From NCBI GenBank assembly GCA_017656185.1, contig JACDOK010000013.1, positions 1-60,235 on the forward strand: a stretch of 60,235 nt of DNA, read 5' to 3'. Positions 40,376 through 55,650 of this stretch are shown one piece after another. The position numbers were made by a program, and so were the translations under genes. A model generated the notes under the pieces. That model made no database searches. It was not told where the DNA came from and was given only the letters and a program-made list of their open reading frames with translations. This DNA comes from Peptococcaceae bacterium (GTDB taxonomy: Bacteria; Bacillota; Desulfotomaculia; Desulfotomaculales; JACDOK01). Numbering within the stretch: position 1 is the stretch's first letter; each line of letters opens with the position of its first letter.

Positions 40376-40384
40376 CGAATGACC

Positions 40385-40484
40385 ACACCCATTTCCCTAC
40401 GCTGGTCTGAACCACACAGGTTCGAAGGGTAAAGCGCCCCGGCGCTTTTCTCAGCCCGCCCTCGCGGACACCCCCATGGGTTGA
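40385..40484 (-). promoter_or_regulatory. TPP riboswitch (THI element)
   Basis: Minus-strand sequence contains the conserved blocks in order: GGGGGTGTCC, GGGCTGAGA, ACCCTTCGAACCTG, and GCGTAGGGAAATGG. The closing helix forms between ACCCAT and ATGGGT at the ends. It lies upstream of ThiD2-ThiE and thiC, so TPP binding should lower their expression. Confidence 0.95.
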
Positions 40485-40551
40485 TGCAAAACATACCTAT
40501 GTTTTTTCATAACCTTATTCTCAACTACCCGAAAAATCCCTGCTTTACTGT

Positions 40552-43058: not shown

Positions 43059-44390
43059 CTAAAACTTCGTCAAATACTCTTCCAATTCCCACTGGTGGAC
43101 CTGCATCCGGTAACGGTCCCACTCAATACGTTTGGCATCCAGGTAGCGCCGGAAGACGTGTTCGCCCAGAGCTTTCCTCATCACTTCACTCTGTTCCAAT
43201 TCGTCCAAGGCTTCTTTAAGATCTTCGGGCAGGCTGCCAATACCGGCAGCAGCCCGTTCCTCCGGAGTCATGACATAGATGTTGCGGTCACAGGGTTTAG
43301 GCGGGGCTATTTTCTTTTTAATACCGTCCAATCCCGCCTGAAGGCATACTGCCAGAGCCAAGTAAGGGTTGCAGGACGGGTCGGGACTGCGCAGTTCCAC
43401 ACGCGTGGACATCCCCCGCTTGGCCGGTATCCTCACCAGGGGACTGCGGTTGCGATAAGACCAGGCAATGTATACCGGTGCTTCATAACCGCTCACCAGG
43501 CGTTTATACGAGTTTACGTTAGGGTTGAGAATAGCCGCCATAGGCCGTGCGTGGTGCAAGAGGCCTCCTATGTAATAAAGACAATCTTCGCTTAATTGCG
43601 CCGGACCATTCTCGTCAAAAAACGCATTTTTGCCATTTTTAACAAGCGACTGGTTCAAGTGCATTCCCGAACCCGCAACGCCAAAAAGCGGTTTGGGCAT
43701 AAAAGTGGCATGCAATCCGTGCCGCTGTGCCACCGAACGCACTACGGAACGAAAAGTGACAATTTTATCGGCAATATCTAAAGCATCGTCATATTTAAAG
43801 TCAATTTCGTGCTGCCCGGGCGCCACCTCATGGTGTGAAGCTTCAATTTCAAACCCCAATTGTTCCAGGGTAAGGATCATATCGCGGCGGGCTTCTTCAC
43901 CGAGATCTACCGGAGCCAGGTCAAAGTACCCGGCTCGATCGTGCGTATGGGTGGTGGGTTTGCCTTCCGCATCTATGTGGAATAAGAAAAATTCTGCTTC
44001 CGGACCAACGTACATTGTATATCCTAATGCTTCGGCGTCAGCAATGGCTCTCCGCAAAACGTAACGCGGGTCACCTTCAAAAGGCGTACCGTCCGGGTTG
44101 TAGATATCACAAATCAGGCGGGCTACGGCCCCCTCCTTGTTAGCCCACGGGAAAATAACAAAAGTATTGGGGTCCGGACGCAGGTACATATCCGATTCCT
44201 CAATGCGTACAAAACCTTCAATAGAAGAACCGTCGAACATTAGCTCGTTATTAAGGGCCTTATCCAACTGCTCCACAGTGATGGCAACATTTTTTAGAAT
44301 CCCAAAAATATCGGTAAATTGCAGGCGAATAAACTTTACACCGTGCTCCTTAGCCAACTGGCGTACATCATCTTTACTCAACTGGTTCAA
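43059..44390 (-). CDS. glnA: Glutamine synthetase type I (copy 1)
   Basis: About 443 residues. Forms glutamine from glutamate, ammonia and ATP. All catalytic blocks are intact: [12 protein letters not shown] near 50, [10 protein letters not shown] (metal Glu pair) near 130, [13 protein letters not shown] near 190, [12 protein letters not shown] (metal His) near 250, [24 protein letters not shown] (flap Glu and phosphate Args) near 300, and [19 protein letters not shown] start at 44390 with GGTGGG 5-6 bases upstream; the frame extends further but family similarity starts here. No ANTAR element is seen in its 80-bp leader, so it is probably read through from the gltB operon, of which it is the last gene. 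Confidence 0.96.
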
Positions 44391-44470
44391 ACAAACCCAC
44401 CCCCAATCAATACTACCTACGTAATATACCATGAATAACTTATAGAAAAAAGCCAAAGTTTAAGTGTTAC

Positions 44471-45863: not shown

Positions 45864-46640
45864 TTAGCTGACATACAACCGACCATAGGGGCGATGAGAA
45901 ACCGGCAGCAGCTTGGTGTACTGATCCTTTTTCAACTCGGCGGCGTCCACTCCAAAGTAATTACCGAATTCGTCCAATAAGCCCCCGAGCAGTTTCCAAT
46001 CTTGGTCATTAAGGTCGAACATCTGTACTTCTTTACCCAAGAGATGTTCAGCAACCCTACCGCGTAGATAGATCACCCCCCCGTGCATACCGGTAGCCAG
46101 GTAATCACCGGTAAGAGGCTGCCCCGGTAAGCGGTCCAGGCCAAGTACGACCAGTACCCCCCCGGCCATATACTCACCACAGAAAGCACCGGCCCTTCCA
46201 CCGACCACCAGTACCGGAACCTGTTCGCGATACTCCTTCATGTGGATACCAACCCGGTACCCTACATCCCCTCGTACAAACAGGCGCCCGCCGCGCATTC
46301 CGTAGCCCAATACGTCACCCGCACTGCCGTCCACAATAACGGTACCGGAATTCATAGTGTTGGCAATGCCGTCCTGGCCGTTGCCGTGCACCCGAATGGT
46401 AGGCCCGTTCATAAAGACGGCCAGGTCGTTGCCCGGTACACCGTTTATTTCGATATAGGCAGGAGTAGAAATGCCGGCGCCAATATATCGTTGCCCGTTG
46501 ACATTGTCCAAAATAATTTCTCTATACCCGGCACTGAGCGCGGCGCGGATAGTCTCGTTCAATTGGCGGTGATGCATCCCCTGGGCATCTATCCGGTACG
46601 GTTCAACCGCCTCCACCCGGTTTCTCAGCTCACATCCCAT
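45864..46640 (-). CDS. Glutamate synthase GXGXG (alpha-subunit C-terminal) domain protein
   Basis: 258 residues forming the right-handed beta-helix that closes the large subunit of glutamate synthase, encoded here as its own gene as in archaeal-type enzymes. Repeated glycine-rich turns: YIGAGISTPAYIEINGVPGN, VHGNGQDGIANTMNSGTVIV, GDVLGYGMRGGRLFVRGD, VGGRAGAFCGEYMAGGVLVVL, GMHGGVIYLRG. Located 18 bp after the FMN subunit gene and 19 bp before the flavoprotein gene. It packs against the FMN subunit; no catalytic residues of its own. Confidence 0.93.
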   Translation of the reverse strand: MGCELRNRVEAVEPYRIDAQGMHHRQLNETIRAALSAGYREIILDNVNGQRYIGAGISTPAYIEINGVPGNDLAVFMNGPTIRVHGNGQDGIANTMNSGTVIVDGSAGDVLGYGMRGGRLFVRGDVGYRVGIHMKEYREQVPVLVVGGRAGAFCGEYMAGGVLVVLGLDRLPGQPLTGDYLATGMHGGVIYLRGRVAEHLLGKEVQMFDLNDQDWKLLGGLLDEFGNYFGVDAAELKKDQYTKLLPVSHRPYGRLYVS

Positions 46641-46658: not shown

Positions 46659-48254
46659 TTATCGTCCCGCGGGCTTGACACCCAGAATTTCCAAGTCCTG
46701 TTCACTCAAGCCCACACCGCGCAAGCGCAGCCGGCTGCCCCGCAAACTTTCGATCGCATTGATCCCTAATGATCCGAGAATTTCTTTCAACTCCAGGGCC
46801 CAACCCCGCAGCAGGTTCGCCAACCGCTGTCCCGCCTCTTCAGGATTAAGGTGCCGGGTCAATTCCGGTCGTTGGGTGGCGATACCCCAGGAACAGTTAC
46901 CGCTAAAACACTGCTGGCAGACGTGGCAGCCCATCGCGATAAGGGCCGCTGTTCCAATAGCCACAGCATCGGCCCCGAGGGCGATAGCCTTGGCTACATC
47001 ACCACTGTGGCGGATGCCGCCGGCCGCAATCAGTGAAACCTGGTTGCGAATACCTTCCTGCCGCAAACGATCATCAACGGCCGCCAGGGCCAGTTCAATC
47101 GGAATACCTACGTGATCACGGATTATCATCGGCGTCGCACCCGTACCACCGCGGAAGCCGTCTATATAGATCACATCGGCCCCGGCCCGGGCAATCCCGC
47201 TGGCTATGGCAGCCACGTTGTGAACGGCGGCAATTTTGACCCCTACCGGCTTGGTATAAGCTGTGGCTTCTTTTAGGGCTGAGATCAGCTGGGCCAGGTC
47301 TTCAATGGAATAGATATCATGATGGGGCGCCGGGGACAGGGCGTCGGAACCGACGGGGATCATACGCGTGCGCGATACTTCTTCATCCACTTTTTCACCC
47401 GGCAGGTGCCCCCCAATACCCGGCTTGGCACCCTGACCGATTTTGATTTCCAACATCGCCGCCCGTTCCAGGTACTCAGGGTTGACACCAAAGCGTCCTG
47501 AAGCCACCTGACCGATGATATGGTCAGCATAGGGATAAAGGTCACGGTGCATTCCGCCTTCTCCCGTATTCATCAATACCCCGCACTCCTTGGCGGCCAT
47601 CGCCAGGGCTTTTTGAGCGTTAAGGCTGATCGCACCGTACGACATAGCGGCAAAAACGATTGGTATTTCAAGCTTGACCTGCGGGGTAAGCTTGGTTTTC
47701 AGCACCGGCTCCCCGTCGGAATCCTGTTCGATTTCCAGAGCCTTGGGACGTGACCCCAGGTAGGTCCGCAGCTCCATCGGCTCACGCAGAGGGTCGATAG
47801 AAGGGTTGGTAACCTGGCAGGCATCCAGCACCAGGTGATCAAAATAACTGAAATAAGGTTTATCGTTGCCGGAACCGGTAAGAATCATCCCGCCGGACTC
47901 AGCCTGTTTAACGATATTCTTCTGATAATGCGGCAACCAGTAGTGGTTGGCTTTATAGGCCAACGGGTTGGGTTCAATATTGATGGCCCCTTCGGGACAA
48001 TGGGTTACACAGTAGTGACACTGGACACATTTCCTGTTATCAGCCACCACCCTGTCCGGGACATATTCTTCAACATGCGCGATAACCTTCTGCAAATCCT
48101 CGGTACTTCCCTGAAATAACTCTTTCGCCCGGTGCCAAAAACTATGTTCAAAACTAAGCGCTCCAAAACCGCAATTTCTCACGCAGCGACCACAGCGGCG
48201 GCACCGGTCTTGGTCAATACGTACGATATATTCCGGCGGCAATAAGCTCCTCAT
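46659..48254 (-). CDS. gltB: Glutamate synthase FMN/Fe-S subunit (archaeal-type split GOGAT)
   Basis: About 531 residues. N-terminal ferredoxin domain with two 4Fe-4S motifs (CRRCGRCVRNCGFG near 22-35 and CVQCHYCVTHCPEG near 80), then the FMN-binding glutamate synthase barrel: PIVFAAMSYGAISLNAQKA, NTGEGGMHRDL, KIGQGAKPGIGGHLPGEKV, IDGFRGGTGATPMI, GGIRHSGDVAKAIALGADAV, and the 3Fe-4S-like CHVCQQCFSGNC. It receives ammonia from the glutaminase subunit and electrons for reducing 2-oxoglutarate. ATG at 48254 overlaps the glutaminase stop by 4 bp with AGGAGG 9 bases upstream; the longer frame is discarded. Confidence 0.95.
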   Translation of the reverse strand: MRSLLPPEYIVRIDQDRCRRCGRCVRNCGFGALSFEHSFWHRAKELFQGSTEDLQKVIAHVEEYVPDRVVADNRKCVQCHYCVTHCPEGAINIEPNPLAYKANHYWLPHYQKNIVKQAESGGMILTGSGNDKPYFSYFDHLVLDACQVTNPSIDPLREPMELRTYLGSRPKALEIEQDSDGEPVLKTKLTPQVKLEIPIVFAAMSYGAISLNAQKALAMAAKECGVLMNTGEGGMHRDLYPYADHIIGQVASGRFGVNPEYLERAAMLEIKIGQGAKPGIGGHLPGEKVDEEVSRTRMIPVGSDALSPAPHHDIYSIEDLAQLISALKEATAYTKPVGVKIAAVHNVAAIASGIARAGADVIYIDGFRGGTGATPMIIRDHVGIPIELALAAVDDRLRQEGIRNQVSLIAAGGIRHSGDVAKAIALGADAVAIGTAALIAMGCHVCQQCFSGNCSWGIATQRPELTRHLNPEEAGQRLANLLRGWALELKEILGSLGINAIESLRGSRLRLRGVGLSEQDLEILGVKPAGR

Positions 48255-49351
48255 TGAGCTGATCCTCCTTCCAATTCCACTATCACCGGTTCGCCTCCCC
48301 AAACGGCCCGCACTTCATCAGGTTCGCCGAAGATCCGGCGCAGAGCACTCTCTTCACTACCCATCAGGACAAAATCACCCTTGCGGGCATACACCAGGGG
48401 ACGCAGCTTGATACGGTCATTAAGCCCGATTAAACCTTTACCATGAGCGACAATAATGCTGAAAGGACCGTTGAGCAAAGCGGAACCGTAAACCTGTCTG
48501 AGCGCGGTATAAAGCCGGCGTTGTGGTTCAGGCATGCGGTCGATGTCTTTCCAAAACGGCGCGGCCAATACCCGGCAGACCAATTCCAATGGTAGATCAT
48601 GGCGCCGGTGCAAGAGGTCAAAAAGATAGGCCACGACTTCCGTATCGGTCTGTAACTCAAGACGATAGCGGAACATCTCCAGGTAGCGCTTGTTGGCCCC
48701 GTAAGACGATATCTCACCGTTATGAACCACGGACCAATCTAAAAGGCCAAGGGGATGTGCCCCACCCCACCATCCGGGAGTATTGGTCGGGAAACGGCCA
48801 TGAGCGGTCCAAAGGTAACCCTCGTACTCCTCAAGGCGGTAAAAAGCAGCTATGTCCTCGGGGAATCCCACTCCCTTAAAGACCCCCATATTTTTACCGG
48901 AAGATGCCACGTAAGCCCTATCGCAGTGTTTGTTGATCTTCATGACTACGGAAGTTACCAGGTTCCCTTCTGCGGTGGAGGAACAACCAACCGCCTTTTC
49001 GGGCCGCACCCTTGCAAAATAGCGCCAAACAGCCGGGGGGTTTTCAATCCCGATGACCTTCCGGGTCGGAATCGGTTCACTCCGGTCGATCAAGAAATTT
49101 TGGCGCAGTAACTCTTCGGCATCCAACCTGCCCTGCTCTGTTTCACAAAGCAGGTGAAAGGCATAATGGTCCTTAAACTCGGGATAAATGCCGTAAGCCG
49201 CAAAACCGCCACCCAGGCCGTTCGACCGCTCACGCATACAGGCAATCGATTGGGTAATGGCTTCACCGTTAATGCATCGTCCCTTGACATTTAGAATAGC
49301 GCTGACCGCACACCCCGACGGGATGCGTACTTCCCCTTCCCTTAACAACAA
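48251..49351 (-). CDS. Glutamate synthase glutaminase (class II amidotransferase) subunit
   Basis: 366 residues. Releases ammonia from glutamine for the FMN subunit encoded just downstream. Ntn-type GATase signatures: catalytic-type Cys in RIPSGCAVSAI (Cys14, so a 13-residue propeptide must be removed if it is the nucleophile), WTAHGRFPTNTPGWWGGAHP, and WSVVHNGEISSYGANKRYLE. TTG start at 49351 with AAGGCAGG about 7 bases upstream. First gene of the glutaminase, FMN subunit, GXGXG, flavoprotein, glnA1 operon. The 150-bp spacer above it contains the glnA2 terminator and a small hairpin. Confidence 0.93.
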   Translation of the reverse strand: MLLREGEVRIPSGCAVSAILNVKGRCINGEAITQSIACMRERSNGLGGGFAAYGIYPEFKDHYAFHLLCETEQGRLDAEELLRQNFLIDRSEPIPTRKVIGIENPPAVWRYFARVRPEKAVGCSSTAEGNLVTSVVMKINKHCDRAYVASSGKNMGVFKGVGFPEDIAAFYRLEEYEGYLWTAHGRFPTNTPGWWGGAHPLGLLDWSVVHNGEISSYGANKRYLEMFRYRLELQTDTEVVAYLFDLLHRRHDLPLELVCRVLAAPFWKDIDRMPEPQRRLYTALRQVYGSALLNGPFSIIVAHGKGLIGLNDRIKLRPLVYARKGDFVLMGSEESALRRIFGEPDEVRAVWGGEPVIVELEGGSAQ

Positions 49352-49441: not shown

Positions 49442-49481
49442 AAGAAAAAGAAGCCCTTGCCGGGCGTATTCCCCGGCAGGG
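49442..49481 (-). terminator. Intrinsic terminator after glnA2
   Basis: Minus strand CCCTGCCGGG pairs with CCCGGCAAGGG (one bulge) and is followed by CTTCTTTTTCTTA. It separates the ANTAR1-glnA2 unit from the glutamate synthase genes, though read-through remains possible. Confidence 0.8.
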
Positions 49482-49523: not shown

Positions 49524-50852
49524 TTAGTATTTGGTGAGGTACTCACGCACCTCCCATTCGTGAACCTGCATCCGGTAACAATCCCATTCCTGCGTCTTAG
49601 CTTCGACAAATTTCTCAAAGACGTGATCGCCGAGAGCATTGATAATTACCTGATCCTGCTTCAATTCGTCCAGAGCTTCTTTTAAGCTGCCCGGTAAGCT
49701 CGGGATGCCCATCTCTTCCCGCTGTTCCGTAGTTAAGTGGTAAATATCCATCTCGCTCTGTTTCGGCGGCTGGATCTTGTTCTTAATCCCGTCAAGCCCC
49801 GCTGCCAGCATCGCTGCCAGAGCCAGGTAAGGATTACAAGACGGATCGGGGTTGCGCAGCTCAACGCGTGTGGAGAGACCCCGCTTGGCCGGAATACGAA
49901 TGAGAGCACTCCGGTTGGCCTGGGCCCAGGCCAGGTAGACCGGCGCCTCGTAACCCGGAACCAGTCTCTTGTAGGAGTTAACCGTGGAGTTGGTTACTGC
50001 CGTCAGTGCACGGGCGTGTTTTAAAAGCCCGCCCACATAGTAGTAACATTCCTGGCTGAGCTGGTCGGGTGTACTGGGATCATAAAAGGCATTTTCGCCG
50101 TTTTTAAATAAGGACTGGTTCGTATGCATACCGGAACCATTAATGCCGAATACCGGTTTTGGCATAAAGGTGGCGTGCAGGCCGTGACGTTGGGCTATGG
50201 TACGTACGACAAATTTGAAAGTGACAATTTTATCGGCACAATCCAGGGCATCGCTGTATTTGAAGTCGATTTCATGCTGGCCGGGCGCCACCTCGTGGTG
50301 CGACATCTCAATTTCGAATCCCATTTCCTCCAAGGCCATTACGATTTCACGCCGCGCATTTTCACCCTTGTCGACGGGAGCCAGATCAAAATAACCTGCC
50401 TGGTCATGGGTTTCCAAGAGCGGCCGCCCCTCGTTGTCTACGTGAAACAGGAAAAACTCCAGTTCCGGACCGACATACATCGTGTAGCCCATCTTCTTGG
50501 CTTCGGCCAACACCCTCCTCAAGGTCTGCCGGGGGCAGCCGGCAAACGGTGATCCATCGGGGTTGTAAACGTCGCAGATCAAACGCGCCACGGCCCCATC
50601 ACGCGGCCGCCACGGGAAAATAGTGAAAGTATTAGGGTCCGGCCTCAAGTACATATCAGATTCATGAATTCGCGTGAAACCGTGAATGGATGAACCATCA
50701 AACATTAGTTCCCCATCAAGAGCTTTTTCGAGTTGTTCCACGGGAATGGCGACGTTCTTAAGAACGCCGAGGACGTCGGTAAACTGCAGTCTTACGAATT
50801 TGACACCCAGCTGCCGCGCCTTTTCCATAATCTCCTGTTTTTGTTGTTCCAC
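49524..50852 (-). CDS. glnA: Glutamine synthetase type I (copy 2)
   Basis: 442 residues and close to copy 1 along its full length. Intact motifs: [90 protein letters not shown]. The adenylylation loop tyrosine region of enterobacterial GlnA is absent, as in GSI-alpha enzymes controlled by feedback and protein partners. ATG at 50852 preceded by AAAGGAG at about 12 bases. It lies 157 bp below the ANTAR1 regulator gene in the same transcription unit, whose leader carries the antitermination element. Confidence 0.96.
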
Positions 50853-50886: not shown

Positions 50887-50971
50887 CCTCAAGGTTCTTG
50901 TAAGAGTGAACCTCCTGAGGATTTCTTTATTGAAAAGGCGCCTTCGCCGTGCTAAGGTCCCTCGTCGGACC
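50887..50971 (-). other. Hairpins between ANTAR1 and glnA2
   Basis: Two stems on the minus strand: GGTCC-GACGAG-GGACC (50956-50971) and a larger CCTCA(GG)AGGTTC / GAACCTTGAGG (50887-50920) just before the glnA2 ribosome site. A GGCG-AAGG-CGCC stem lies between them. None has a following T run, and the hexaloop starts with G, so they do not fit the ANTAR consensus. They may affect mRNA processing or glnA2 translation. Confidence 0.45.
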
Positions 50972-51009
50972 AGGTCATCACTTTCCAGCATTTTAAGAGA
51001 GCGCTCCCT

Positions 51010-51591
51010 TTAATCCAAACTATGGGCCAGAATAATGGCCTCAGCCACAGCGCGCATCGAAATGCGCTTGTTCATGCTCTGCTTTTGAATTTTGCGAAAG
51101 GCTTCGGCTTCCGTCAGCCCGAGAGTATGCATCAAAATCCCCTTGGCCTTTTCTACAATTTTTCTTGTTTCCAGCTTCTCTTGCAGTTCTTTTACCTGCT
51201 CCTCCAACCGTACAACTTCAGAATAATTGGACAGGGCGATTTCCACTGTAGGGATCAGGGAAGCCTCACCAACCGGTTTGACAAGATAGCCGAAGGCACC
51301 GGCCAGTTTTGCTTCTTCCAATGTTGCGTGGTCGTAATTACTGCTGATTAATACCACCGGAGCAAGTTTATCGTCGGAAACAATACGTGCAAGTTCCAAC
51401 CCACTCATAGCCGGTAAAAATACCTCTGCAATAACCAGGTCGGGCTGGCGAACACGGATAAGTTTTAAAGCTGTTATACCGTCGGTGGCTTCCCCGATGA
51501 TTAAAAACTCGGCCGCCTGCAGCATTGCCCCTATATTTTTCCGAGAAGCGTCATCATTAATCGCAATGACAACGCGGTGCTGCCTGGGCAC
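51010..51591 (-). CDS. REC-ANTAR transcription antiterminator (ANTAR1)
   Basis: 193 residues. N-terminal receiver-like domain (RVVIAINDDASRKNIGAML, DLVIAEVFLPAMSGLELA) in which the phospho-acceptor Asp position reads Glu (AEVFLP), so phosphorylation is doubtful; the beta-5 Lys is kept (GYLVKPVG). A coiled coil (EEQVKELQEKLETRKIVEKA) leads to the RNA-binding ANTAR domain KAKGILMHTLGLTEAEAFRKIQKQSMNKRISMRAVAEAIILAH. The start is a GTG or ATG-equivalent at 51591 after AGGAGGTAGGGG. Its own leader (51657-51737) has an ANTAR hexaloop pair overlapping a terminator, so it probably autoregulates and controls glnA2. Known relative in principle: NitR-like regulators of clostridial glnA. Confidence 0.93.
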   Translation of the reverse strand: MPRQHRVVIAINDDASRKNIGAMLQAAEFLIIGEATDGITALKLIRVRQPDLVIAEVFLPAMSGLELARIVSDDKLAPVVLISSNYDHATLEEAKLAGAFGYLVKPVGEASLIPTVEIALSNYSEVVRLEEQVKELQEKLETRKIVEKAKGILMHTLGLTEAEAFRKIQKQSMNKRISMRAVAEAIILAHSLD

Positions 51592-51656
51592 AAACCCCTA
51601 CCTCCTAACCACACTGTCATGCTTAATATGTCTTTTATCGTTCGGCAGCAATCTTA

Positions 51657-51702
51657 AAACAAAAAGCCCTCACACAAACCCCGAAAGAGGTCTGCTGAGG
51701 GC
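51657..51702 (-). terminator. Attenuator terminator in the ANTAR1-glnA2 leader
   Basis: Minus strand GCCCTCA (51702-51696) pairs with TGAGGGC (51672-51666), with an inner CAGACC/GGGTTTG stem, followed by TTTTTGTTTT. It lies about 65 bp before the ANTAR1 start. Its 5' arm shares bases 51700-51702 with the second ANTAR hairpin, so the two folds exclude each other. Confidence 0.85.
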
Positions 51703-51737
51703 ACCATTGCCATTACCGAACACTTCATTGTATCCGG
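51700..51737 (-). promoter_or_regulatory. ANTAR antitermination RNA element of ANTAR1-glnA2
   Basis: Two hairpins with six-base loops and a 4-nt linker. P1: CCGGATAC-AATGAA-GTGTTCGG (51737-51716, 8 bp including two G-U). P2: GGC-AATGGT-GCC (51711-51700). Both loops have A at position 1 and G at position 4, the bases recognised by ANTAR domains. Binding of an ANTAR protein would hold P2 and prevent the terminator. Confidence 0.82.
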
Positions 51738-51771
51738 AACCGTACTATTAATTTTATTTAATTTTATTTGT

Positions 51772-51800
51772 AGTATATACAGTTAATTAGTTAAGATCAA
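51772..51800 (-). promoter_or_regulatory. Promoter of the ANTAR1-glnA2 unit
   Basis: TTGATC (51800-51795), 17-bp spacer, TATACT (51777-51772) on the minus strand. The start would fall near 51765, giving an AT-rich stretch before ANTAR hairpin P1. Confidence 0.7.
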
Positions 51801-51821: not shown

Positions 51822-53399
51822 TTATCCTAGAATTTGATCTACTTCTTCCTCATCAACGTCCATAATGTACTTAATACCACTGATCCGCGCTGCTTCGGGG
51901 GTAAGGGCCGCAACATCGTCCCGGCTAATATACTGCAGAGCGAATTTGCGGGCCCCACACATCAGCTGGCGCAGCCCCTGAGCCAGGCGCTCGTAATAGG
52001 TATACACACCGACAGCACCAACCGGTAAACGGTCAAAGTCCTTACCCAGTTTATTCTTAAGCTCAGCCGCACAGACAAAAATTTGCTCGATGGTTTCGCC
52101 GTATTTCTTGTATTCCGGCAGCACCTTGCCCTGTTTGATCGCTTCGCCGACAGTCTTACCGACCATAGCCGCCGCCAGCGGCGAACGGGACATTCCGATG
52201 GCCTTGATATACGGCGCACTGAGAGCAAAACCCTTGAACATATGATCTTCCAGGGTTAAGCCGCCAGCAATAGCGATCGGCGGAATGTAGGCACCCTTGG
52301 CCGCCAAACGGTCACAATATTTGGTAAGTAAAGCTTGGAGGTAAACGGTCGGAATACCCCACTCATTCATCATCCGCCAGGGGCTCATACCCGTACCGCC
52401 ACCGGCACCGTCCACCGTCAGCAGGTCAAGTTTCGCGTCAGAGGCAAACTTAATGGCACGTGCCAAATCAGCCGGGCGATAGGCACCGGTTTTTAAAGTA
52501 ATGTATTTTGCACCGGCAGCCCGGAGCTGGTCCACACGTTCCTTAAAGCTCTCCCATTCCACCATACCGATGCGGGAGTGTCTTTCAAATTCCTTGAAGG
52601 CCCCGGCCTTAAAAGCTTCCTGTACGGTGGGATCTTCCGGGTCGGGCAGTACAATATAACCCCGGCTTTTTAGCTGCAGGGCCCGTTCCAGGCTGTTGAG
52701 CTTGACCTCACCACCGATGTCTTTTGCGCCTTGACCCCATTTAAGTTCTACCACCTCAACACCGTACTTCTCTATAACCCATTCCTGCACGCCAATCCGG
52801 GTATCTTCCACGTTGGCCTGCACGCCGATGAAGCCTTCGTCTCCAGCCCACTCCTGGAACGACTTAATGCGGCGCTCCATGTTCGGTGAGCTAATAATAC
52901 GTCCATCCTTGATCTCAGCATTGGGATCCATCGCGCAAACGTTTTCACCGACAACAATACCCCCACCGGCCAATGCCACACCTGCCGCCAGGTGCTCCCA
53001 GTTATTCGCGGCAACATCGGTGGAACCCATAGCGGCACAAATAATGGGCAGGCGCAGCTTAAGGCTGCCGTCGGCACCGATCGAGGTACTGAGATCTACC
53101 GCCGGGAAAATGGCTTTATCGGGGTCGGGTTCAACGCCGATAGCCCCAACAGCGGTTCCCATGATACTGAAATGCGAATAGTCGACAGGATATTTCTTTT
53201 GAGCGGCGGAAGTGGTTTTACCAAAAGGCTGGGGATATAACATTTCCTTGCCCCGCACCGCCGACTTGCCGATTTCACAGAGACCCGGGCAGCCGTCGAG
53301 GCAGGTCACACACATACCACTCTGGGGACATCTGTTATCTCCCGTACGCAGTCTGGTTTGTGTAGCAGCACTGGCATTAGTACCGATACTGAAGTTCAT
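51822..53399 (-). CDS. FMN-binding glutamate synthase family protein
   Basis: About 525 residues. N-terminal cysteine cluster (CPQSGMCVTCLDGCPGLCE), probably a 4Fe-4S site, then a glutamate-synthase-type FMN barrel: LPIICAAMGSTDVA, GENVCAMDPNAEI, VVELKWGQGAKDIGGEVKL, ITLKTGAYRPADLARAIKFA, DLLTVDGAGGGTGMSPWRMMNEWG, IPPIAIAGGLTLEDHMFKG. No glutaminase domain or GXGXG domain, so ammonia handling would need a partner; activity as a GOGAT is unproven. ATG at 53399 with GAGGAGG 9 bases upstream. Between glnA3 (148 bp upstream) and the ANTAR1 promoter, and possibly co-transcribed with glnA3. Confidence 0.9.
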   Translation of the reverse strand: MNFSIGTNASAATQTRLRTGDNRCPQSGMCVTCLDGCPGLCEIGKSAVRGKEMLYPQPFGKTTSAAQKKYPVDYSHFSIMGTAVGAIGVEPDPDKAIFPAVDLSTSIGADGSLKLRLPIICAAMGSTDVAANNWEHLAAGVALAGGGIVVGENVCAMDPNAEIKDGRIISSPNMERRIKSFQEWAGDEGFIGVQANVEDTRIGVQEWVIEKYGVEVVELKWGQGAKDIGGEVKLNSLERALQLKSRGYIVLPDPEDPTVQEAFKAGAFKEFERHSRIGMVEWESFKERVDQLRAAGAKYITLKTGAYRPADLARAIKFASDAKLDLLTVDGAGGGTGMSPWRMMNEWGIPTVYLQALLTKYCDRLAAKGAYIPPIAIAGGLTLEDHMFKGFALSAPYIKAIGMSRSPLAAAMVGKTVGEAIKQGKVLPEYKKYGETIEQIFVCAAELKNKLGKDFDRLPVGAVGVYTYYERLAQGLRQLMCGARKFALQYISRDDVAALTPEAARISGIKYIMDVDEEEVDQILG

Positions 53400-53565
53400 A
53401 TGATATTTCCTCCTCATTATGGTGTCAATAGTAGATAACGTTCTATACGCCTTTTATTAACCGATTTTTCTGTTAACCACGGGTTCCTTGGTGCATTCCC
53501 CCTTTCATTTCAAGGAAAAATTCTTATCACTAATGTTGCCTCTGGTACAGCAAATCCTATCCGGC

Positions 53566-54891
53566 TTAGTAATTTCTCAGATACTCTTCAAGTTCCCAGG
53601 GATGAACCACAGAGAGGAAGCGTTCCCATTCATTTTCCTTGATCTCCCGGAACCTGTTGTAAATCGCTTTGCCAAGCATCTCTTTGATCAGAGTATCACC
53701 TTCCAACGCGTCAAGGGCGGCCGCAAGACTGCGGGGCAGGCCTCTCTCCCTGGCCAATTCCCGCAGTTCATCTCCCGAGGAACATTCCCCGTCCGTTATT
53801 ATTGGAGGGGGTGCAATCCTGTTCGTTATGCCGTCCATCCCGGCTGTCAGAATGGCTGCCAGGGCCAGGTAAGGGTTAACCGTGGGGTCGGGGCTGCGAA
53901 GGGTTATACGGGCATCCCCGACCTGTTTCTCCGGTACACGGATCATTGTGTTGCGGCTGGTGCTGGACCATGCCGCCAGAAACGGGGAATGGTAACTGGG
54001 AACAAAACGCTTGTAAGAGTTTATCAAAGGACAGGTAAGAGCCGTTACCGCCCCGGCGTGATGCAAGAGTCCCCCAATAAAATACCGGGCGGTATCGCTT
54101 AAACCCATCGGATCATCAGAAGACTCAAAAAGATTGGTCTCTCCCCGCCAGAGGGAAAGATGCAGTTTTAACCCTGAACCGGCTTCATTGTTTAAGGGTT
54201 TGGGCATAAAGGATGCGTGCAGACCGTGGCGCTGAGCCACAGTGCGTACTACAAACTTGAAGGTGGCAATTTTATCAGCCAATACCAGAATATTGTCATC
54301 CTTAAGGCCGATTTCGTGCTGGCCGGGTGCCATCTCGTGATGTGAAGACGCTACTTCGATGCCCATTTCTTCAAGCGTGAGTACCATATCCCGGCGCGCG
54401 TTCTCACCCAGGTCTACCGGAGTTAAATCACAAAAACCGGCCTGGTCGTGGGTGATTGTCGTCGGTCTGCCCTGCTCCCCGCTGTGGAATAAAAAGAATT
54501 CAATCTCGGCCCCGGCCATTAGGCGTATCCCATCTTTTTCAAACCGGGATATAACCTTTTGCAATCTGCTCCGGGAGCACCCGGGGAAAGCTTCTCCCCG
54601 GGGAGTAAGGGCGTTGCAGATCAAACGCGCCACCGCACCGTCCCGGGGGCGCCAGGGGAACACTACGAAAGTAGCGGGATCAGGTTGGAGTAGAATGTCC
54701 TTTTCACAGTACCCGCGAAAGCCTTCAAATACCGCGCTGTCAAACAGCACCTGTCCTGCCAGGGCCCGTTCAAGTTCTTCTACCGTAACAGCTACATTTT
54801 TTAAGGCACCTAATATATCGGTAAACTGCAGTCTGATAAATTTAACATGGTATTCTTTTACCAATTCACGAACTTGTTCAAACTCTGTCAC
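53566..54891 (-). CDS. Glutamine synthetase homologue with altered active site (copy 3)
   Basis: About 441 residues, full-length GSI fold but divergent from copies 1 and 2. Kept: AEIEFFLFH and HHEMAPGQHEI metal Glu residues, RHGLHASFMPKP, and the phosphate Args (SRNTMIRVP). Changed against Salmonella numbering: metal His269 is Lys (GSGLKLHLSL), flap Glu327 is His (VPSYHSPF), metal Glu357 is Thr (ARITLRSPD), and FDGSS is FDSAV. These losses argue against normal glutamine synthesis; a regulatory protein or a different ligase is more likely. GTG start at 54891 with GGGGGAG 10 bases upstream. Preceded by promoter, ANTAR element and terminator. Confidence 0.9.
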   Translation of the reverse strand: MTEFEQVRELVKEYHVKFIRLQFTDILGALKNVAVTVEELERALAGQVLFDSAVFEGFRGYCEKDILLQPDPATFVVFPWRPRDGAVARLICNALTPRGEAFPGCSRSRLQKVISRFEKDGIRLMAGAEIEFFLFHSGEQGRPTTITHDQAGFCDLTPVDLGENARRDMVLTLEEMGIEVASSHHEMAPGQHEIGLKDDNILVLADKIATFKFVVRTVAQRHGLHASFMPKPLNNEAGSGLKLHLSLWRGETNLFESSDDPMGLSDTARYFIGGLLHHAGAVTALTCPLINSYKRFVPSYHSPFLAAWSSTSRNTMIRVPEKQVGDARITLRSPDPTVNPYLALAAILTAGMDGITNRIAPPPIITDGECSSGDELRELARERGLPRSLAAALDALEGDTLIKEMLGKAIYNRFREIKENEWERFLSVVHPWELEEYLRNY

Positions 54892-54918
54892 AATTAACAC
54901 ACTCCCCCGAAAATCCTC

Positions 54919-54971
54919 AAAAAAGAAAAGCATCCCCAAAAACCCCGTCATCACAGGGTTCCCAGGGACGC
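54919..54971 (-). terminator. Attenuator terminator in the glnA3 leader
   Basis: Minus strand GCGTCCC (54971-54965) pairs with GGGGATGC (54937-54930), with AACCC/GGGTT inside, followed by TTTTCTTTTTT. It ends 28 bp before the GTG start. Its 5' arm overlaps the 3' arm of ANTAR hairpin P2. Confidence 0.85.
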
Positions 54972-55011
54972 CCTTGCCCCAAAAGCCACCATATCAGTAT
55001 CTTAAGGTTGC
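54965..55011 (-). promoter_or_regulatory. ANTAR antitermination RNA element of glnA3
   Basis: P2 is clear: GGGGC-AAGGGC-GTCCC (54980-54965), five pairs with a hexaloop having A1 and G4. P1 (55011-54985) is weaker: GC.ACC and GGT.GC close a bulged stem whose tip can present ACTGAT, also A1/G4. The linker is 4 nt (TTTT), as in the ANTAR1 leader. Confidence 0.7.
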
Positions 55012-55016
55012 CTATT

Positions 55017-55046
55017 ATTATAGATATAAACCAAAAAAATTGTCAA
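55017..55046 (-). promoter_or_regulatory. Consensus promoter of glnA3
   Basis: Exact TTGACA (55046-55041) and exact TATAAT (55022-55017) on the minus strand, 18-bp spacer. Transcription would begin near 55010, at the foot of ANTAR hairpin P1. Confidence 0.85.
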
Positions 55047-55059
55047 CAATCCTTTTATT

Positions 55060-55650
55060 CTAGCATTGGTTCTCAAACCATTTGATAATGTCTTTGGCAA
55101 CTTTTGCAAGAGAACGCGACTGGTCCATACTTAACTTTTGGAGGTAATGAAAGGCCGCTTGTTCAGTAAGGCCCCTGTATTCCATTAATAAACCTTTGGC
55201 TTTTTCAATAACCTTTCTGGCTTCCAGCATCTTTTTAAGTTTAATGTTTTCCTGCTCAACCTCGTTCAACTTATCATAATTAGCCATGGCAACTTCAATG
55301 GCCAGGTACAGCTCCCATTCCTCATAAGGCCGGATGACGTAACCAGATACCCAACTGGAACGCACCCGTATAATAACCTGCTCCGGATTATCGGCTACCA
55401 AAACTACCGGCGCCACTCGCTGTTCGTCAAGAACCTGCATTATGCCCAAGCCGCTGTAATCAGGAAGGTTATTATCAAGTATAATAACATCAGGATGTAT
55501 CTGGAAAGCCACTCTTAAAACTTCTTTGGCTTGGCGTACCTGGCTGACAACAAGGTATCCGCCCTTACGCAGTTTATCCGTAACCTGTCTTATTTCAACG
55601 CCATCAGCCATGGCAACAACGACACGACTTTGTAGCATAGTACGCAGCAC
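55060..55650 (-). CDS. REC-ANTAR transcription antiterminator (ANTAR2)
   Basis: 196 residues. Receiver domain with DVIILDNNLPDYSGLGIM (acceptor-like Asp kept) but no acidic pair at the N-terminus (SRVVVAMADGVEI) and no beta-5 Lys (GYVIRPYEEW). A coiled coil (LNEVEQENIKLKKMLEARKV) leads to the ANTAR domain KAKGLLMEYRGLTEQAAFHYLQKLSMDQSRSLAKVAKDIIKWF. It ends just upstream of the glnA3 promoter and is the obvious candidate to act on the glnA3 leader and perhaps on that of ANTAR1. Divergent from the MFS gene; its own leader has no ANTAR element. Confidence 0.92.
   Translation of the reverse strand: MLRTMLQSRVVVAMADGVEIRQVTDKLRKGGYLVVSQVRQAKEVLRVAFQIHPDVIILDNNLPDYSGLGIMQVLDEQRVAPVVLVADNPEQVIIRVRSSWVSGYVIRPYEEWELYLAIEVAMANYDKLNEVEQENIKLKKMLEARKVIEKAKGLLMEYRGLTEQAAFHYLQKLSMDQSRSLAKVAKDIIKWFENQC

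Follow-up and report, generated by a model that had tools for sequence, protein, structure and literature searches.

A conserved, probable ANTAR-type attenuator and a candidate single-hexaloop variant in a nitrogen-assimilation gene cluster of Desulfotomaculales

Introduction

How is transcription of the ANTAR1-glnA2 genes controlled, and which protein would act on their leader? We considered this question in a Peptococcaceae genome of the order Desulfotomaculales. The window, that is, the whole stretch of DNA analysed, is 60,235 nucleotides long. A preliminary description of the window had proposed an ANTAR antiterminator element upstream of ANTAR1, here called E1.

Ramesh et al. 2012 (PMC3369931) described dual-hairpin elements in Desulfotomaculum reducens, at genes for glutamate synthase, and 13 attenuators in D. 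acetoxidans; thus E1 adds to an already known kind of element. These predicted regulons (PMC3369931, Figure 9) come from the same order, have several elements per cluster, and include the same kind of targets: glutamate synthase, glutamine synthetase and nitrogen genes. The genome considered here is described separately from them and retains fewer elements.

Three glutamine synthetase genes lie within 12 kb of the window (43059-44456, 49524-50852 and 53566-54954, all minus). Glutamate synthase is split into an amidotransferase (48251-49351), a synthase core with a ferredoxin domain (46659-48302) and a GXGXG part (45864-46640), all on the minus strand. A second gltB-like gene occupies 51822-53417 (minus). 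At gathering scores, Rfam reports no ANTAR match in the window, only a tRNA and a TPP riboswitch (40376-40485, minus; RF00059, 61 bits).

Results

The leader of ANTAR1-glnA2

The leader contains two successive hairpins with six-nucleotide loops, the second of which overlaps an intrinsic terminator (Table 1). Read directly on the minus strand, P1 consists of the arms CCGGATAC (51737-51730) and GTGTTCGG (51723-51716) around the loop AATGAA (51729-51724), two of its eight pairs being G-U. After the linker TAAT (51715-51712), P2 consists of GGC (51711-51709), the loop AATGGT (51708-51703) and GCC (51702-51700). The terminator reads GCCCTCAGCAGACCTC-TTTC-GGGGTTTGTGTGAGGGC, then TTTTTGTTTT; its 5' arm shares GCC with the 3' arm of P2, and the two structures are mutually exclusive. 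A simple terminator scan overlooks it because of a bulge. The preliminary description had given the same stem and loop of P1, the same loop of P2, the 4-nt linker, A at position 1 (A1) and G at position 4 (G4) of both loops, and three shared bases; all of this, including every coordinate, is exact to the base. It had also placed a good promoter 35 bp upstream. A sigma-70 type promoter does end 34 nt before P1; its score is modest, but most relatives have one at the equivalent place (TTGxxx-17-TATAAT).

Table 1. Features of the ANTAR1-glnA2 and ANTAR2-glnA1 regions (positions in the window)
Feature	Positions	Strand	Remarks
Terminator after glnA2, intrinsic	49454..49481	minus	-20 kcal/mol, z -3.4, then TTCTTTTTC
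glnA2, glutamine synthetase	49524..50852	minus	PF00120 483 bits
E2, diverged dual hexaloop (GGUCC-GACGAG-GGACC, GGC-GAAGGC-GCC)	50933..50972	minus	model R2, 22 bits, E 4e-4 in 20 kb
ANTAR1, pseudo-receiver and ANTAR domain	51010..51591	minus	GTG start; PF03861 82 bits, PF00072 64.5 bits
E1 terminator, U-tract (UUUUUGUUUU)	51656..51665	minus	direct reading
E1 terminator, intrinsic	51666..51702	minus	first three bases are the P2 3' arm (GCC 51702-51700)
E1 P2, antiterminator hairpin GGC-AAUGGU-GCC	51700..51711	minus	3 bp; A1 and G4
E1 linker UAAU	51712..51715	minus	4 nt; about 2-12 nt in relatives
E1 P1 hairpin	51716..51737	minus	8 bp; hexaloop AAUGAA (A1, G4)
E1 promoter, sigma-70 type, TTGATC-17-TATACT	51772..51800	minus	9/12
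E0, single hexaloop hairpin and overlapping terminator, glnA1 leader	54930..54980	minus	model R3
glnA1 leader promoter TTGACA-18-TATAAT	55017..55046	minus	12/12
ANTAR2, degenerate receiver	55060..55650	minus	PF03861 77 bits

The leader folds with an energy of -38.6 kcal/mol (RNAfold; z = -5.5 against dinucleotide shuffles). In the minimum-energy state P1 and the terminator are formed, and enforcing P2 costs about 8.7 kcal/mol; thus the predicted unassisted state is termination. We scanned strictly for pairs of hairpins with A1/G4 hexaloops, totalling 11 bp or more, and an overlapping terminator; on both strands of the window, E1 was the sole match. The same pattern occurs at 3 sites per 1000 dinucleotide-shuffled 60-kb single strands.

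Conservation in Desulfotomaculales

We used ANTAR1 as a query against sixty genomes of the same order and retained the 30 best loci, including the one considered here. Named loci found subsequently (Desulforudis, Pelotomaculum propionicicum, Desulfotomaculum copahuensis, Desulfovirgula and Desulfocucumis) point to Desulfotomaculales. Nearly all 30 regions have the gene order ANTAR2 - glnA1 - gltB-like gene - E1 - ANTAR1 - glnA2. One locus was lost to a contig end; in 26 of the 29 countable loci (this genome and 25 of 28 relatives) P1, P2 and the overlapping terminator are found upstream of ANTAR1. The exceptions are L014, where P2 has decayed, L020, where the P2 loop has another length, and L023, which has no P1. 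A covariance model, R1, was built from 23 relatives with the window sequence left out. In the whole 2.3-Mb genome its single significant match is E1 (43 bits, E 4.6e-8), the next match having E 0.97.

Covariation backs P1 far more than P2, as the P2 pairs are nearly invariant, though paired in all relatives counted. In P1, three of the six pairs show changes on both sides (four of six in a set of 70 sequences), and the paired fraction of all cells is 99%, compared to 93% in shuffles and at most 54% with slid partners. The invariance of P2 is expected if it is bound by a protein and is also part of the terminator. The G4 of the E1 loops never varies among relatives. Position 1 of the P1 loop is G instead of A in five of them (L005, L010, L011, L012, L015), and two, L012 (G040) and L015 (G020), have G at this position in both loops. 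This candidate rule, with G4 fixed and A or G at position 1, fits the structure of EutV, where, of all bases, G4 alone is specifically recognised (PMC8934654).

Relation to known ANTAR elements

A second model, R2, was built from 70 elements of these nitrogen clusters. It finds matches in loci of Clostridium, Paenibacillus and Brevibacillus, and none among the searched ANTAR-homologue-encoding loci of Chloroflexota, Armatimonadota and Actinomycetota. In Clostridium tunisiense the match (L150 8021-8061, 32.4 bits) has the sequence AAGCAC-AAGGTC-GTGCTT ... GGC-AACGGA-GCC. It is situated between a eutW-like kinase gene and a eutA-like gene, followed, by inspection, by homologues of eutB, eutC and eutL. 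Since R2 recovers this eut element, the nitrogen and eut elements constitute one RNA family, the ANTAR dual-hexaloop family. The sequence features of that family are seen in E1: two successive hairpins of at least 3 bp, each with a 6-nt loop, A1 and G4 in both loops, an overlap of P2 and the terminator in the correct orientation, a profile shared with a eut element, and ANTAR-domain proteins in the same genome. There are exactly two of the latter (PF03861), ANTAR1 and ANTAR2, both in the window. Weak extra matches at other sites of the genome (E at least 0.2) were judged to be due to chance.

The eut antiterminators recognised by EutV of Enterococcus faecalis (PMC3369931, PMC8934654) share with E1 the two A1/G4 hexaloop hairpins, a short linker, a P2 stem of about 3 bp and the overlap of P2 with the 5' arm of the terminator. 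In E. faecalis the eut linkers have 5-12 nt, and cutting a linker to 3 nt reduced induction (PMC3369931). The 4-nt linker of E1 is thus at the short end, just below the eut range, and we accepted it as being inside the range of its relatives, which go down to about 2 nt. There are also differences from the eut system: the target of E1 is nitrogen assimilation, its putative regulators have degenerate receivers, and the relatives of E1 tolerate G at loop position 1. The leaders controlled by AmiR and NasR (amiE of Pseudomonas, nasF of Klebsiella) follow the same logic of P1, P2 and terminator, but respond to other signals (amides, nitrate) with other sensor partners.

The earlier reading of E1 as an ANTAR antiterminator is thus strongly supported by orthologous elements, covariation, uniqueness in the genome and cross-recognition of a eut element.

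ANTAR1 and ANTAR2

ANTAR1 aligns with EutV (E 3e-36) and Rv1626. It lacks the EutV-type phospho-acceptor site, consisting of an acceptor Asp and an acidic pair: Glu is found at the phospho-Asp position and Ile-Asn replaces the acidic pair. Of 30 ANTAR1 orthologues, 22 carry Glu at the acceptor position, 7 carry Asp and one carries His. ANTAR2 has kept the Asp, lost the acidic pair and has Arg for the conserved Lys. Both proteins look like pseudo-receivers, similar to AmiR (PMC3369936), and are thus unlikely to be controlled by phosphorylation. In the open reading frames of 44.0-60.2 kb we saw no kinase gene. The two proteins probably respond to the binding of another protein or of a metabolite, not to a kinase.

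Of the EutV residues contacting RNA, as defined in PMC8934654, ANTAR1 has kept Arg142, Lys143, Lys147, Lys149, Glu160, Met172, Asn173 and Arg175, with Tyr164 changed to Phe and Arg168 to Gln. ANTAR2 has Asp and Ser in place of Asn173 and Arg175.

The glnA2 side of the unit

The terminator after glnA2 limits the E1 unit to ANTAR1-glnA2, and transcription from E1 probably ends there. The preliminary description, which spoke of an ANTAR1-glnA2 leader, overlooked a second element, E2, between the two genes, at the same place as E2 of the relatives. Both loops of E2 have G at position 1 here, and no terminator fold was found behind it. We therefore rejected the idea that E2 still works as an attenuator here; it has probably decayed in this genome. 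At the same site the relatives have a working-looking version. They also carry more dual elements, E3 after glnA2 and E4 further downstream.

A single-hexaloop element upstream of glnA1

Another candidate attenuator, E0, is located 3 kb from E1, in the gap between ANTAR2 and glnA1. Its hairpin GGGGC-AAGGGC-GUCCC (54980-54965) has A1 and G4 in the loop, and the 3' arm starts a terminator that runs to 54930. Unlike a dual-hexaloop element, E0 has one A1/G4 hairpin. Each of the 27 ANTAR2-glnA1 gaps that we examined contains it; G4 is invariant, and A occupies position 1 in 26 of them.

A hidden P1 before E0 was considered and rejected. Upstream hairpins of at least 3 bp occur in 5 of the 27 gaps, compared to 5.6 expected, which is not beyond chance. 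Hairpins of at least 5 bp occur in none of the 27, compared to 20 of 27 for E1.

One position of the E0 3' arm covaries with its antiterminator partner (GC 13, AU 10, GU 2) and also with its terminator partner (CG 12, UA 9, UG 3). Such three-way covariation directly supports two mutually exclusive folds. Model R3, built without this genome, finds E0 in the whole genome with 47.8 bits (E 2e-7). It also matches the part of E1 formed by P2 and the terminator, with 30.6 bits.

Upstream of the glnA1 promoter, many relatives (L044, L048, L053, L054, L056, L062, L066 and others) have a palindrome-like DNA motif, TGTATACAATATT, which is perhaps a GntR-type operator. It is absent here.

Distribution of elements and ANTAR proteins

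Four genomes without any ANTAR protein (G016, G038, G041, G055) have neither the dual element nor E0. An E0-type match is found in all five genomes with one ANTAR protein. In G013 the elements are present and no ANTAR protein was found; this exception is perhaps due to an assembly gap.

Discussion

Very probably, E1 attenuates transcription of ANTAR1-glnA2 as a member of the ANTAR dual-hexaloop class, with P2 overlapping an intrinsic terminator. The two hairpins, the mutual exclusion of P2 and the terminator, their conservation and the family identity, all read from sequence, suggest the following mechanism. Transcription would start near 51765, and P1 would be the first hairpin made in the RNA. 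By default, the terminator (51702-51666) would form and RNA polymerase would stop before ANTAR1. An active dimer of ANTAR1 or ANTAR2, presumably under nitrogen shortage, would engage P1 and then P2. With P2 held by its GGC/GCC pairing, the terminator would lose its outermost base pairs adjoining the U-tract, and the polymerase would then read on through ANTAR1 and glnA2 to the terminator at 49481-49454.

Which of the two proteins would act is a closer question. One possibility is positive autoregulation of ANTAR1, as the preliminary description had predicted. The other is a cascade: ANTAR2, whose own transcription would not depend on an ANTAR leader, would open E1 (and E0), with ANTAR1 serving as an amplifier or acting at other sites. 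E1 would then not be chiefly a site of autoregulation; this contests only the autoregulation step. We consider the cascade a serious candidate, a little short of an even chance, and about as likely as autoregulation. We found no element preceding ANTAR2, and genomes G050 and G011 carry dual elements and E0 while keeping only the ANTAR2 orthologue; thus, activators of E1 other than ANTAR1 have to be reckoned with. On the other hand, ANTAR1 immediately follows E1 in almost all relatives, and it is ANTAR1, not ANTAR2, that has kept the RNA-contacting Asn173 and Arg175.

It is very unlikely that the structures are just an ordinary terminator of the gltB-like gene (ending at 51822) and an unrelated hairpin, without regulated read-through. 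The terminator is indeed 120 bp downstream of the stop codon of this gene and could also end its transcript. However, a promoter lies between the two, and the A1/G4 loops, the covariation in P1 and the overlap of P2 are kept across about 25 species. Chance resemblance to an ANTAR element, conceivable for a short motif with a P2 of just 3 bp, is practically negligible given the rarity of the pattern in shuffles, the position of E1 in the leader of an ANTAR gene, its unique significance under a model that never saw it, and its conservation in relatives.

Attenuation by E1 thus remains the preferred reading, and we regard E1 as a solid, order-wide case of ANTAR attenuation on a core nitrogen-assimilation operon. 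The degenerate receivers raise the question of which signal ANTAR1 and ANTAR2 read.

The locus bears on two points left open by the 2022 structure of EutV with RNA, namely, regulation by single hexaloops and the loop bases that matter. On the latter, natural variation keeps G4 constant and allows A or G at position 1, and the change of A1 to G in both loops of E1 does occur. On the former, Walshe et al. 2022 redefined the minimal ANTAR binding motif as one hexaloop, maintained that antitermination at eutP needs successive contact with both hexaloops at the proper distance, and asked for further study of targets with a single hexaloop (PMC8934654). E0 may well be such a target: we slightly favour its being a second class of ANTAR attenuator, with one hexaloop, without P1, and exclusive with its terminator, on which ANTAR proteins would act. 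Leaders of this type would escape the search of Ramesh et al. 2012, since it demanded two hairpins (PMC3369931). If an ANTAR dimer opens E0, two hexaloops would not be needed for antitermination, contrary to the present eutP rule. E0 and E1, side by side in one cluster, offer a natural comparison of whether one hexaloop suffices.
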